The position numbers and the translations under genes were made by a program. The notes below the pieces were generated by a model. The model did no database searches and was not told the origin of the DNA. It was given only the letters and a program-made list of their open reading frames with translations. Positions 18,305 to 23,317 of a DNA stretch of 64,000 nt are shown piece after piece. Position 1 is the stretch's first letter; every line of letters starts with the position of its first letter. Origin of the DNA: Bacillota bacterium (lineage in GTDB: Bacteria; Bacillota; Clostridia; Peptostreptococcales; Acidaminobacteraceae); NCBI GenBank assembly GCA_020161295.1, contig JAIUOA010000001.1, positions 1 to 64,000 on the forward strand, written 5' to 3'.

Positions 18305-20767
18305 TTATTTTACTCTAAAACGTTTCAGTCTTAAAGCATTTGTTAAAACGGACACTGAACTCATCGACATGGCTGCTGCGGCGATTACTGGATTTAAAAG
18401 TGGCCCACCGAAAAGGTAAAGGACACCAGCTGCGACGGGAATGCCCACGATGTTATAAATGAAAGCCCAGAATAAGTTTTGCTTGATGTTAGTGATGGTT
18501 GCTCGACTGAGCGCAATAGCGCTAACAACATCGAGAAGGTCACTTTTCATAAGAACGATGTCTGCCGATTCCATCGCAACATCTGTCCCAGATCCGATGG
18601 CGATACCGATATCTGCTTGAGCAAGTGCAGGTGCATCATTAATACCGTCTCCGACCATGGCCACTGTTTTGCCTTGGGATTGGAGGCTTCTGACGGACTC
18701 AGCTTTATCACCTGGCAGTACTTCAGCTAAAACATCATCTATACCGACAGTGGCTGCGATGGCTCTGGCTGTTTTTTCATGGTCACCTGTAATCATCAGT
18801 GTTTTAATGTTCATCTTATGCAGTCGCTTAATGGCTAGAACGCTATTTTCCTTAAGGACGTCAGCCGCACCGATGATTCCGAAAGGCTGACTATTGACCG
18901 CCATTAGCATCGGCGTTTTTCCTTGCTCTGCTAACTGATCAAAACGAGACATCCAAGGTGAAAAATCGACATTCTTTAGTTTCATTAGTTTAATGTTTCC
19001 GAGAAGTACTGTATGTTCAGCGGTTTTAGCTTCGAGACCATGCCCTGGTATTTCTTCGAAATGAATTAAGTCTTTTTTAACTGCTCCCAGCTCGACCGCT
19101 TTGTTTACGATGGCTTGAGCCAGTGGGTGTTCGCTACCATACTCTGCAGAATAAGCGAGAGAGAGTAGGAGTGCCTCGTTTTCTGGTTCAAATGCGATGA
19201 TGTCCGTAACCTCAGGTTTTCCTTTCGTAAGTGTACCTGTTTTATCGAAAATAATGGTGTCGATTTTATGCGCCGTCTCAAGTGCTTCACCACTTTTCAC
19301 GAGAACGCCGAGCTCTGCACCCTTACCGGTTCCCACCATGATGGCAGTTGGTGTAGCCAGACCTAGTGCACACGGACATGCGATTACGAGTATGGCGATA
19401 AAAACTTTTAAGACGAAGACGATGTCTTGTCCGGCGATAAACCATGCGAGCGCCGATAAGAATGCGATTACGAATACGATAGGAACAAAATAGCCTGAAA
19501 TAATGTCTGCCATTCTAGCGATCGGGGCTTTACTGCCTTGTGCTTCTTCTACAAGCTTGATGATTTGAGCAAGGGCGGTTTCATCTCCAACCTTCGTCGC
19601 TTTATACTTCATTAAGCCTGTCTTATTAATACTTGCACCATAAACAGAGTCGCCGATTTTTTTATCTACGGGCATGCTTTCTCCCGTTAGCATGGATTCG
19701 TCAACTGTTGAATAGCCTTCGATAACGACACCATCCACTGCAACTTTTCCACCTGGTTTAACGATGACGATATCGCCAATTTCGATTTCCTCAACAGAGA
19801 TTTCGATTTCTTGATCGCCATTTATGATGATGGCTGTTTTAGGTGTCAAGCCGATGAGCTTTTTAATCGCTTCTGATGTTTTTCCTTTTGAGATGGTTTC
19901 GAGTGTTTTGCCCAGTAAAATGAGGGTTATGATTACACCAGCTGTTTCGAAATACATGTGATCAACTGCCATATGATCGCCATTCAAAATCTGGAACACG
20001 GAGAATACACTATAAACTAAAGCGGCAGAGGTACCAATCGCTATAAGAGAGTCCATGTTCGGTGACCTGTGCCAAATCTGACGATAGCCAACCGTATAAA
20101 AATGTCTGCCTGCCCAGACGATGGGAATCACGAGAATTATTTGAGTAATGGCAAAATTTAGCGGAAAATTCATCGGTGAAATAATGGAAGGGATAGGGAG
20201 TGAAACAAATTTTAACATCGGTGCCATGGCGATATAGAATAATGGAATAGCAAATATCGCCGAAAGGGTTAGCTTAAATTTCATTTTTTTAATTTCGAGC
20301 TGTTTCTTTTCTCGGTCTTCGTCGATATTTCTCTTAACGACGACATCCTTTGGCGTGTAACCTAGCTTCGTTATTTGCTGCTTGATTTCAGATAGTCTAA
20401 CCTTATCCGGATTATAGTGGATCGTCGCCATTTCTGTGGCCAGATTTACCGTTATGTTTGACACGCCATCCTGTTTTGAAAGCTTTCTTTCGATGGCTTG
20501 ACTGCACGCAGCACAAGTCATTCCTTCAATGGGGATGATTACCTGTTTATCTGGCTGTTCAAGTGTTGCTTCATAACCAGCTTTTTTAACCGCCTCTGAT
20601 ATGGCTTCTTTTGATAATTTAGTTTCATCGTACGTAATCGTCAATTTTTCGGTCGACAGATTTACGTTTGAGATTTCTACGCCTTCGAGTTTGCGTGTGA
20701 CGCGCTCAACTGCGGCAGAACATGAGGCACATGTCATGCCGTCTACTTTATAACTTTCGGTTTTCAT
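18305..20767 (-). CDS. copA: Copper-exporting P1B-type ATPase
   Basis: An 820-residue Cu(I) efflux pump. Two N-terminal heavy-metal-binding domains carry GMTCASC (from residue 10) and GMTCAAC (from about 80). The transmembrane metal site is ACPCALGL, the phosphorylation site DKTGTLTKG, the nucleotide-domain motif SEHPLA, and the hinge GDGINDAPALAQADIGIAIG. Length and domain order match Bacillus CopA. AAGGAG precedes the ATG on the minus strand. No CopZ chaperone gene is adjacent; csoR follows instead. Confidence 0.96.
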   Translation of the reverse strand: MKTESYKVDGMTCASCSAAVERVTRKLEGVEISNVNLSTEKLTITYDETKLSKEAISEAVKKAGYEATLEQPDKQVIIPIEGMTCAACSQAIERKLSKQDGVSNITVNLATEMATIHYNPDKVRLSEIKQQITKLGYTPKDVVVKRNIDEDREKKQLEIKKMKFKLTLSAIFAIPLFYIAMAPMLKFVSLPIPSIISPMNFPLNFAITQIILVIPIVWAGRHFYTVGYRQIWHRSPNMDSLIAIGTSAALVYSVFSVFQILNGDHMAVDHMYFETAGVIITLILLGKTLETISKGKTSEAIKKLIGLTPKTAIIINGDQEIEISVEEIEIGDIVIVKPGGKVAVDGVVIEGYSTVDESMLTGESMPVDKKIGDSVYGASINKTGLMKYKATKVGDETALAQIIKLVEEAQGSKAPIARMADIISGYFVPIVFVIAFLSALAWFIAGQDIVFVLKVFIAILVIACPCALGLATPTAIMVGTGKGAELGVLVKSGEALETAHKIDTIIFDKTGTLTKGKPEVTDIIAFEPENEALLLSLAYSAEYGSEHPLAQAIVNKAVELGAVKKDLIHFEEIPGHGLEAKTAEHTVLLGNIKLMKLKNVDFSPWMSRFDQLAEQGKTPMLMAVNSQPFGIIGAADVLKENSVLAIKRLHKMNIKTLMITGDHEKTARAIAATVGIDDVLAEVLPGDKAESVRSLQSQGKTVAMVGDGINDAPALAQADIGIAIGSGTDVAMESADIVLMKSDLLDVVSAIALSRATITNIKQNLFWAFIYNIVGIPVAAGVLYLFGGPLLNPVIAAAAMSMSSVSVLTNALRLKRFRVK

Positions 20768-20799
20768 AAAAGCTCCTTAGTATCATCGTTATTATAGTT

Positions 20800-20816
20800 A
20801 TACCCCTAAGGGGTAT
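20800..20816 (-). promoter_or_regulatory. CsoR operator, downstream copy
   Basis: Palindrome ATACCCCTAAGGGGTAT, matching the known CsoR box pattern (TACCCC..GGGGTA). It sits around or just after the predicted copA start site. Confidence 0.8.
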
Positions 20817-20826
20817 TTATATTCTA

Positions 20827-20855
20827 ATGATACCCCTAGGGGGTATAAAAGTCAA
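20827..20855 (-). promoter_or_regulatory. copA: copA promoter with embedded CsoR operator
   Basis: On the minus strand, TTGACT (20850-20855) and TATCAT (20827-20832) have a 17-base spacer. The palindrome ATACCCCTAGGGGGTAT at 20830-20846 fills the spacer, so a bound CsoR would block RNA polymerase. The two boxes are 30 bases apart, about three helical turns. Confidence 0.8.
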
Positions 20856-20913: not shown

Positions 20914-20966
20914 AATAGGGGATACACAGCGTGTATTACGAACTAAATTTTTGACTTGAGGTGAAT

Positions 20967-21659
20967 ATGAATCGATTAGCGATCAAAATAAAAGAAGCTC
21001 GACTAAAGGCAAAAATGTCTGAAAAGGATCTCGCAAAAGCATGTGGTCAAAACATCAATTATATTCTGCAAATTGAATCTGGGAAAAAAGTAATCAACGA
21101 GCAAATCGCTGAGCAAATTTTAAAAATTCTCGGTGAAAAAATCGAAACCTTTCAAGATGCCGTTGAAACTGAAAAGCCAGCTCCAGCCCCAAACACTGCA
21201 CAAAAGCAGTTGAATAATCAGTCCGTTAAGAAAAGTCTGGATGCTCCAGTTACGCCTAACGATCAATGGATGGATGCTCTGTCAGGCGTCATCAGAAGCT
21301 TTCCAATAACCGATGAAATGAACGTGAAGGTATTGGCACAAAAGGAGCTCCCGCTAATTTCAAAAAAAATTGAGGGCATCTCGGTTGATAAGGTCAGTTT
21401 TATAAAGGTGACTTCTGAAGATATGCCTGAGCTAAGAATCATGAAAGGAGATGTCGTTTTGCTTCAGCAAATGACCGATTTCGCATCACCAGGCATCTAT
21501 TATTTCGAATACCAAGGGCGAAAGCAACTTCGCTTTTTATCGAAAATCCAGAATAATATCCTAGGAGCAGGGTCGACTGCTTTTGGATCTGATTTTTCTG
21601 ATGATCTTAAGAAGTTCAAGATTATGGGAAAAGCTATTAAAGTTGAATTTATGCTTTAG
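20967..21659 (+). CDS. XRE-type regulator with S24/LexA-like C-terminal domain
   Basis: A 230-residue protein. Residues of about 3-58 form a helix-turn-helix of the Cro/C1 type (MSEKDLAKACGQNINYILQIESGKK). A Pro/Ala/Gln-rich linker follows, then a domain of about 80 residues (MPELRIMKGDVVLLQQ, GIYYFEYQGRKQLRFLSK) with the layout of the S24 peptidase/LexA fold. A self-cleavage Ala-Gly site is not evident, so it is probably a regulator and not a protease. ATG at 20967 follows GAGGTG; GTG at 20961 is an alternative. Target genes are unknown. Confidence 0.75.
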   Translation: MNRLAIKIKEARLKAKMSEKDLAKACGQNINYILQIESGKKVINEQIAEQILKILGEKIETFQDAVETEKPAPAPNTAQKQLNNQSVKKSLDAPVTPNDQWMDALSGVIRSFPITDEMNVKVLAQKELPLISKKIEGISVDKVSFIKVTSEDMPELRIMKGDVVLLQQMTDFASPGIYYFEYQGRKQLRFLSKIQNNILGAGSTAFGSDFSDDLKKFKIMGKAIKVEFML

Positions 21660-21688: not shown

Positions 21689-21717
21689 TTGAATTATCAG
21701 AGTTTTCATGTTACTAT
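21689..21717 (+). promoter_or_regulatory. hflX: Promoter of the hflX leader
   Basis: TTGAAT at 21689-21694 and TACTAT at 21712-21717, 17 bases apart. It predicts a leader of about 315 bases before hflX. Confidence 0.6.
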
Positions 21718-21747
21718 TTAATTAAATAAGTTAGGTTGAGGTGTGTT

Positions 21748-21786
21748 ATGTTCAAATTACGTGTTTGCGTGACAACTGAATATTAA
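21748..21786 (+). CDS. hflX leader peptide 1 (MFKLRVCVTTEY)
   Basis: A 12-codon ORF starting with ATG 4 bases after GAGGTG (21738-21743). Residues 3-5 are Lys-Leu-Arg, a (+)X(+) motif of the kind at which macrolide-bound ribosomes stall. It precedes a terminator by about 70 bases. Too short for similarity evidence; support comes from the ribosome binding site and position. Confidence 0.5.
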   Translation: MFKLRVCVTTEY

Positions 21787-21833
21787 TGGAGCGCTGTTTA
21801 GGTGTTTCTACTTTAAATCACTTGCAACCTTAA
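21786..21833 (+). CDS. Possible coupled leader ORF (MERCLGVSTLNHLQP)
   Basis: A 15-codon ORF whose ATG overlaps the stop of leader peptide 1 (TAATG). It runs through CTTGCA at 21821-21826, which is complementary to part of the terminator stem, so translation here could affect folding. It has no separate ribosome binding site. Confidence 0.3.
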   Translation: MERCLGVSTLNHLQP

Positions 21834-21855
21834 TTTAATAGGTTTATGTCGACGT

Positions 21856-21881
21856 GCTGCAAGTTTTTCTTGCAGCTTTTT
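21856..21881 (+). terminator. Terminator (attenuator) inside the hflX leader
   Basis: GCTGCAAG / CTTGCAGC with a T5 loop and a following T5 run. It lies between the predicted promoter and hflX. CTTGCA at 21821-21826 can pair with TGCAAG of the 5' arm to form an antiterminator. Confidence 0.75.
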
Positions 21882-21926
21882 ATTTGAAAATACTAAGGTA
21901 TTTTCTGTCCAATAGGAGGGTGAAAC

Positions 21927-21971
21927 ATGTTCACAGTAAAGTTCACACAAAACAACAGATTACGCGCTTAA
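21927..21971 (+). CDS. hflX leader peptide 2 (MFTVKFTQNNRLRA)
   Basis: A 14-codon ORF behind a strong AGGAGGGTG site (21914-21922). It ends in Arg-Leu-Arg-Ala; RLR is the stalling motif of the ErmD-type leader peptide. The stop is 4 bases before a 12-bp hairpin (21976-22004). Confidence 0.5.
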   Translation: MFTVKFTQNNRLRA

Positions 21972-21975
21972 ATGC

Positions 21976-22004
21976 CATCCTAAAAGGCACTTCCTTTTAG
22001 GGTG
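21976..22004 (+). promoter_or_regulatory. Hairpin between leader peptide 2 and hflX
   Basis: CATCCTAAAAGG pairs with CCTTTTAGGGTG over 12 positions around loop CACTT. There is no U-run, so it is not a terminator. The 3' arm (TCCTTT) is also complementary to the AAAGGA of the hflX ribosome binding site, so alternative pairing is possible. Confidence 0.5.
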
Positions 22005-22039
22005 TGAATGAAAGTTCCAACACTGAAAGGAGAACATTT

Positions 22040-23317
22040 ATGACTGAAAAATTTATAGTAGAACGCGGCATCGTCGTCGGTGCCAACATTAATAATCGAA
22101 GTGATTTCGAGTATTCCATGACCGAGCTCGAAAATCTGGCGCAGGCCTGTGGTATCGAAGTCGTCGGTCGTGTGGAGCAAAACCTAAAGAAACCCAATAA
22201 CAGTACTTATGTAGGATCCGGAAAGGTGGATGAAGTAAGGCTGGCTGTTGAGCTACAGGATGCGAACCTGGTGATTTTTAATCATGAGTTGACACCATCA
22301 CAGCTTAGAAACCTGGAGCGAACACTTAGTATTCGCGTGATCGATCGAACGAATCTTATACTGGAAATTTTTGAGCGCCGTGCTAAAACCAGAGAGGCGA
22401 AGCTTCAAGTGGAAGCTGCACATTTACAGTACTTGTTGCCACGATTAATCGGTTCGTATGAATCGTTAGGACGTCAAAGTGGTGGCGTAGGCACTAAAAA
22501 CAAGGGTGTGGGTGAAAAGAAGCTGGAGCTGGATCGCAGAAAGGTCGAACAGAAGATTCATGAACTCAACCGAGAAATCGAATTGATTTCGGTTGAACGA
22601 AAGACACAACGAAAAAGAAGAAGTGATATCGCCATGCCGTCAGTGGCGTTAGTGGGATATACCAATGCTGGAAAATCCACATTAATGAACTTGATGGTGA
22701 ATCGATTCAACCGACAAGACAATAAAACGGTTTTTGAGAAGGACATGCTTTTTGCGACGCTTGAAACCTCGGTAAGGCAAATTCGGCTTCCTGACCGAAA
22801 GAAGTTTACACTATCAGATACGGTAGGATTTGTTAGTGAGCTGCCACATGATCTGGTTAAAGCTTTTAGGGCGACACTTGAAGAGGTTAAAAGTGCAGAT
22901 TTGCTACTTCATGTGGTGGATTACTCAAATGAAAATTATGCACTTCAAATGGCGGTGACGCTAGAAACCTTAAATGAAATCGGCATCAAGGATATACCCA
23001 TCGTTACGGTTTATAACAAACTGGATTTGTGCTCCTCTGAAAGAAAATCACATGAAATGCTAGACAAGGATGTCGTCCGGTTATCAGCAAAAACAGGTGA
23101 GGGACTCGAGGCGTTACTTGAGCATATAACCGCTAAGCTGTTCAGCGATTATGTCGACTGCACTGTCGATGTCCCCATTAGCGATGGAAAACTCATCGCA
23201 TTTCTTAACGAGAACACTCATATTAAAGACTCGGCATATGGAGAAACGAATGTGACGTTTAACGTGGTTTGTAGTCCGTTAGACTATCAAAAACTTTTAC
23301 CCTATGTCGTGAATTAA
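22040..23317 (+). CDS. hflX: GTPase HflX (ribosome-splitting factor)
   Basis: A 425-residue GTPase. The N-terminal HflX domain (about 1-195) includes VGSGKVDEVRL and the helical region with RKVEQKIHELNREIELI. The G domain begins near residue 200 with GYTNAGKST (G1), DTVGFVSELPHDLVKAF (G3) and NKLD (G4). HflX binds 70S/50S ribosomes and rescues or splits stalled ribosomes during stress; HflXr relatives give macrolide and lincosamide resistance. ATG at 22040 follows AAAGGAG; an earlier in-frame ATG at 22004 lies at the foot of a hairpin. The long leader with short ORFs and an internal terminator suggests induction by translation stress. Confidence 0.93.
   Translation: MTEKFIVERGIVVGANINNRSDFEYSMTELENLAQACGIEVVGRVEQNLKKPNNSTYVGSGKVDEVRLAVELQDANLVIFNHELTPSQLRNLERTLSIRVIDRTNLILEIFERRAKTREAKLQVEAAHLQYLLPRLIGSYESLGRQSGGVGTKNKGVGEKKLELDRRKVEQKIHELNREIELISVERKTQRKRRSDIAMPSVALVGYTNAGKSTLMNLMVNRFNRQDNKTVFEKDMLFATLETSVRQIRLPDRKKFTLSDTVGFVSELPHDLVKAFRATLEEVKSADLLLHVVDYSNENYALQMAVTLETLNEIGIKDIPIVTVYNKLDLCSSERKSHEMLDKDVVRLSAKTGEGLEALLEHITAKLFSDYVDCTVDVPISDGKLIAFLNENTHIKDSAYGETNVTFNVVCSPLDYQKLLPYVVN

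Follow-up and report, generated by a model that had tools for sequence, protein, structure and literature searches.

The hflX gene of the window, by which we mean the whole 64 kb stretch of DNA analysed here, is preceded by a leader with two short upstream ORFs (uORFs), each carrying a Lys/Arg-Leu-Arg motif, and an intrinsic terminator between them. It is likely that this leader attenuates an hflXr-type gene in two ribosome-sensed stages, in which ORF1 would control transcription and ORF2 translation. Its elements are as follows.

21689..21717, + strand: candidate sigma-A promoter TTGAAT-17-TACTAT with TG before the -10 element, read from the sequence; same form and place in 5 relatives
21728..21743, + strand: predicted anti-antiterminator strand, including the ORF1 Shine-Dalgarno sequence (SD1) GAGGTG (21738-21743); pairs with 21819-21836 in nascent RNA ending at the terminator loop
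21748..21786, + strand: ORF1, MFKLRVCVTTEY and stop codon, candidate transcription-level sensor; Lys-Leu-Arg codons 21754-21762, start-proximal
21819..21836, + strand: predicted antiterminator strand CACTTGCAACCTTAATTT; its CTTGCA is able to pair with TGCAAG (21858-21863) in the terminator 5' arm
21856..21884, + strand: intrinsic terminator between ORF1 and ORF2, found by terminator scan; 8-bp stem GCTGCAAG/CTTGCAGC (21856-21876), then a T-run
21886..21905, + strand: small AT-rich hairpin GAAAATAC-TAAG-GTATTTTC, 5' of the ORF2 SD, from sequence and folding
21927..21971, + strand: ORF2, MFTVKFTQNNRLRA and stop codon, candidate translation-level sensor; SD AGGAGG 21914-21919, Arg-Leu-Arg codons 21957-21965, stop-proximal
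21976..22004, + strand: 12-bp hairpin CATCCTAAAAGG-CACTT-CCTTTTAGGGTG after ORF2, a strong fold; its 3' arm is predicted to pair alternatively with the hflX SD
22027..22032, + strand: hflX SD AAGGAG, read from the sequence
22040..23317, + strand: hflX of the HflXr clade, 425 aa, start at 22040, identified by TIGR03156, PDB match and tree

The leader and identity of the window hflX gene

An earlier note on this DNA had described two short SD-led ORFs upstream of hflX, one with a KLR and the other with an RLR motif. Both ORFs lie exactly where it placed them, and both motifs are present in the window sequence. It had also predicted a promoter upstream of the ORFs; a generic promoter scan of the window leader returned none at the scan threshold, but in the comparative check the form TTGAAn-17-TAnnnT was present 23-31 nt 5' of ORF1 in all six ORF1-bearing genes. 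That description did not include the terminator between the ORFs (sequence GCTGCAAGTTTTTCTTGCAGC-TTTTTATTT), the hairpin downstream of ORF2 or the second hflX gene of the genome.

Comparison of the window protein with NCBIfam TIGR03156 gave 445.8 bits (cut-off 216.75), as expected of an HflX GTPase, and its best PDB match was 8a57, GTPase HflX (426.6 bits). In a maximum-likelihood tree of 45 HflX proteins, the window gene and six further family genes form one clade (100/99), which falls within a larger HflXr clade (100/98) together with Listeria HflXr (L130), Paenibacillus genes and genes from the same order. The HflXr clade excludes both the other Listeria HflX (L163) and the genus's second copies. 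L130 is 100% identical to the 8a57 chain, and because an rli80-like peptide is encoded upstream of L130, we take both to be HflXr, the title of 8a57 giving merely GTPase HflX. As a positive control, the scan used for the window recovered MRYIRLRFPKNLCN, a 14-aa RLR peptide, upstream of L130, which agrees with the published 14-aa RLR ORF of rli80 (PMC6310831). The window gene shares several features of hflXr, namely an HflX GTPase product, grouping with Listeria HflXr, an RLR-type leader uORF and, in silico, a terminator with an alternative antiterminator pairing. The second hflX elsewhere in the genome is a paralogue with 51% identity and lacks the two-uORF leader.

A gene for a small helix-turn-helix protein (20961-21659) lies immediately upstream of the window hflX; in L057, L061, L062 and L063, hflX likewise follows a gene with a C terminus of similar sequence (K-V-E-F), whereas L055 and L056 have none there. 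Further upstream, two ATACCCCTA(A/G)GGGGTAT-like palindromes (20795-20850), resembling CsoR-type operator sites, stand upstream of a copper-type P-ATPase gene (18305-20767, minus strand).

Conservation of the two motif-bearing ORFs

To be counted as a motif uORF, a sequence had to have an ATG start, an SD, 5-20 codons and [KR]L[KR]. Dinucleotide shuffling of the 316-nt leader yielded two such uORFs in 0/20,000 shuffles and one in 71/20,000; of the 2,548 segments of 316 nt taken from the two strands of the 64 kb, the leader alone contained two such uORFs. Short ORFs are common, and a single motif uORF does arise in shuffled sequence; a chance origin of basic-motif short ORFs in AT-rich intergenic DNA is nevertheless ruled out for practical purposes by the shuffles, together with the conservation of both ORFs in diverged relatives.

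Genus and family searches yielded seven hflXr orthologues, including the window gene (L001), of which L001, L055, L056 and L057 belong to the genus, and L062 and L063 to a sister genus. Both ORFs are present in six of these seven genes, and five have the strict [KR]-L-[KR] motif in both ORFs together with the promoter and the intervening terminator, the last detected by scan in L001, L055, L056, L062 and L063. The peptides are MMKLRGNYDN and MLIKKTVNYIKLRA (ORF1 and ORF2, respectively) in L055, MRLRQNSQVKFNSIKA (MRLR) and MLSFIKLRRSTSL in L056, MMKLRLS and MFKLCRLRRVMIIH in L062, and MKLRDYSMIKVNKRNYR (MKLR) and MNKFMRLKNSTLK in L063. L061 has the ORF1 peptide MMKLRLS and a GTG-start ORF2, MLKLCKLCRVIIIH, without a strict +X+ motif. 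L057 has ORF2 only (MLMIYFVKLRD), directly after the promoter, and ORF1 and the terminator are absent. The hairpin after ORF2 is present in all four genus members, with 2 of the 12 consensus pairs changed on both sides.

The motif is kept in 6/6 genes having ORF1, always at codons 2-5, and in ORF2 of 6/7 genes, where it lies farther from the stop codon in L056, L062 and L063. Beyond the motifs, the peptides have little in common among relatives. The earlier note had offered conservation of KLR/RLR in close relatives, against a variable background, as a test on which its proposal could fail; the motifs persist in peptides that have otherwise diverged and are written in other codons. Those of ORF1 are AAA TTA CGT, AAA TTA AGA, AGA TTA CGT and AAA TTG AGA, and those of ORF2 are AGA TTA CGC, AAA TTA CGA, AAA TTA CGC, AAA TTA AGA, AGA TTA CGT and AGA TTA AAA. 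These synonymous changes (TTA/TTG, CGN/AGA) and the Lys/Arg exchange indicate selection on the peptide rather than on the RNA letters. The sequence comparison thus points to peptide-level selection on the motif in ORF1 and ORF2, and both are short, SD-led ORFs with Lys/Arg-X-Lys/Arg, as expected of +X+ arrest peptides.

The same codons bear on a rival reading, in which the ORFs would respond not to a drug but to a lack of Arg, Lys or Leu (classical amino-acid attenuation) or to translation stress in general. Since HflX rescues stalled ribosomes, a general stall sensor would be sensible, and the motif leucine is invariant. Each ORF, however, has one copy of the motif and no run, Lys and Arg exchange, and the Arg codons alternate between CGN and AGA, which are read by different tRNAs; the pattern fits the drug arrest motif +X+ (PMC8298421), and we consider shortage or stress sensing quite improbable.

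The window leader might instead have a single sensor ORF, as in Listeria hflXr, the other ORF being a remnant or a tuner of initiation. Single RLR uORFs are the usual state in the HflXr clade, ORF2 stands alone in L057, and L061 has lost the strict ORF2 motif. We regard this as unlikely, given that the motifs are kept in both ORFs while the remaining peptide diverges, and that each ORF has a separate RNA device.

No such ORF pair was found at the second hflX copies of the genus or at other hflX copies of the family. The tandem layout with two strict motifs was likewise absent from the hflXr genes sampled from the order, the class and Lactobacillales outside the family clade; among the hflXr genes sampled it is confined to that clade, which bears out the suspicion that a double-sensor layout would be unusual. 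A search of Rfam found no family in the window leader or 12 related loci, and a plasmid search with the window leader gave no match.

Predicted control of transcription and translation

The presence of the terminator and the hairpin, together with RNA folding, suggests that each ORF probably has a layer of its own, ORF1 acting on transcription and ORF2 on translation. When the nascent window RNA was folded as far as the terminator loop, the SD1 region (AAGUUAGGUUGAGGUG) paired with CACUUGCAACCUUAAUUU, a strand lying 5' of the terminator; CUUGCA on the CACUUGCAACCUUAAUUU side is complementary to UGCAAG in the terminator 5' arm. The same pairing topology, with other sequences, is predicted in L055, L056 and L063. 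The strand between was shuffled 1000 times and both pairings (SD1:antiterminator and antiterminator:terminator) were scored jointly. The joint pairing was matched in 1, 9, 16, 92 and 40 of 1000 shuffles for L001, L055, L056, L062 and L063, respectively, the transcription switch being weak in L062. Full-length terminator RNA favours the terminator in every folded state, and the switch would therefore have to be kinetic and co-transcriptional.

Without drug, the SD1 region would pair with the antiterminator strand, the terminator (21856-21876) would form and few transcripts would reach hflX. A drug-bound ribosome would stall at the Lys-Leu-Arg of ORF1, with Leu in the P site and Arg in the A site; because the motif lies at codons 2-5, a ribosome stalled there sits on SD1. 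With SD1 covered, the antiterminator would be free to bind the 5' arm of the terminator, and RNA polymerase would read through, as in the model for vmlR (PMC9226507).

An alternative is that ORF1 and the terminator form a separate small transcription unit, with ORF2 and hflX under a promoter of their own. In its favour, the T-run and the ORF2 SD are about 30 nt apart in the window; the corresponding distance is ~10-20 nt in L055, L062 and L063, too short for a promoter, which makes this arrangement very unlikely.

For the second stage, in which ORF2 would act on translation of the read-through RNA, folding was carried out with masked ribosome footprints, a crude model. The predicted probability of an unpaired hflX SD was 0.04, 0.42, 0.19 and 0.20 in L001, L055, L056 and L057, respectively, when the ribosome stood at the stop codon of ORF2, and 0.42, 0.76, 0.66 and 0.34 when it stood at the motif Leu codon. 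In L001, L055 and L056, the SD is more open in the stalled state because the hairpin closes. With the default footprint, SD access was higher when stalled than at the stop codon in 6/6 leaders; for the window gene, the effect holds for a footprint front edge of +14 to +18 and reverses at +13. Shuffling of the segment between ORF2 and the SD reached the observed difference in 0, 3, 1 and 5 of 150 cases in L001, L055, L056 and L057, but in 28/150 (L062) and 58/150 (L063), which is not significant; owing to shared ancestry, the shuffle tests across relatives are not independent. Within this model, support for the predicted second stage is good in the four genus members and no more than a hint in the sister genus.

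Once RNA polymerase has read through, a ribosome that completes ORF2 would mask the 5' arm of the hairpin, leaving the 3' arm to pair with the hflX SD and hide it. A ribosome stalled two codons earlier, at Arg-Leu-Arg, would allow the hairpin to close on itself, and the hflX SD would become more accessible. HflX would then be produced and split stalled ribosomes.

More tentatively, the two stages may constitute an AND-type sensor with two checkpoints, in which HflX, the ribosome splitter, is made only after stalling on both arrest peptides, one start-proximal and one stop-proximal, which would differ in their selectivity for drug or context. If so, a leaky signal at one layer would be filtered by the other. 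Even apart from this, a two-stage leader would be a natural case of two serial nascent-peptide sensors guarding one gene at two levels.

Comparison with known systems and other hflX leaders

Arrest at +X+ motifs with Leu in the P site, which we propose for the window motifs, is established for ErmDL and also known for Mef(E)L (PMC8298421, PMC4335068). Short MRLR peptides arrest with macrolides (PMC8298421) and are close to ORF1, which has MRLR in L056 and MKLR in L063. ErmDL and Mef(E)L are single leader peptides, controlling a methylase gene or an efflux operon.

A close counterpart is the hflXr/rli80 leader of Listeria monocytogenes (PMC6310831), which likewise has an HflXr-clade gene, an RLR uORF, an intrinsic terminator, antiterminator/anti-antiterminator logic and a second hflX copy outside that control. 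It has one uORF and uses transcription attenuation only, whereas the window adds a post-terminator RLR uORF and a hairpin that are probably translational. A conserved Arg-Leu-Arg uORF is also predicted upstream of hflX in Bacillales (motif uORFC-6-1; PMC8632094); it is described as one uORF with an RNA structure particular to it, and the leaders analysed here match no Rfam family. The B. subtilis leaders of tlrB (yxjB) and vmlR (PMC6851288, PMC9226507) each combine attenuation of transcription with sequestration of the SD, as proposed here, but one uORF drives both layers (a nonapeptide ending in RYR and the tripeptide MIN, respectively), in contrast with the proposed uORF per layer in the window. 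In the ermB system (PMC8274638), the resistance gene is preceded by two leader peptides; the system is described as translational attenuation, with a stall at an Asp codon of ermBL, and lacks two +X+ ORFs flanking a terminator.

Among the open-access papers searched, none described two distinct +X+ uORFs with an intervening terminator. As single RLR uORFs, dual attenuation by one uORF and two-uORF erm leaders are known, the novelty would lie in two +X+ uORFs with layers of their own, which look like a doubled, new form of a known resistance switch. If this is correct, HflXr-type inducible ribosome rescue extends to environmental Clostridia, and the compact pair of conserved +X+ peptides, one of the minimal MRLR/MKLR type, offers a test of chain position against drug selectivity.

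In the closest relatives at order level, a single uORF ends in IRLRG or IRLRK before the stop codon and precedes a long stem, 5 of whose 14 pairs are changed on both sides. The simplest reading is that the ORF2-type leader is older, and that ORF1 and the terminator were gained in the family and lost in L057. The leaders would form a clear evolutionary series, from leaderless through one uORF to two.

Several other layouts were observed. L087 (-331 to -259 and -162 to -117 relative to hflX) and L090 (-305 to -242 and -143 to -98) belong to a related group and have another two-ORF leader, with an ORF1 of MKNLFKVFDKLHIYCSRIKY type (RIK/KYK near its end), a terminator TACCCTGGAGCAC..GTGTTTCAGGGTATTTTT and an ORF2 ending in RLRG, possibly an independent double sensor. 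Comparison of their upstream ORF and terminator with plasmids, as a check for foreign origin, gave short weak matches only. L164 has a single uORF, MRIRSEIFSVRLRS (-225 to -180 relative to hflX), with a start-proximal and a stop-proximal +X+ motif. A Paenibacillus-type hflXr leader occurs in L005, L006, L097, L165 and L166, with a uORF like MINIKFRFFTLCR or MRIKFRFYTLCD, then the conserved RNA AATAGTG..AAAGGCTCTG..GGGATTGG and a terminator near hflX; it may be the uORFC-6-1 motif, and a search of Rfam with the L005 and L097 leaders gave no match. Genome G188 contains two hflXr copies with equal match scores (C1:507332-508573 and C1:2420694-2421935; L093 and L115), both preceded by the same RLRG leader.
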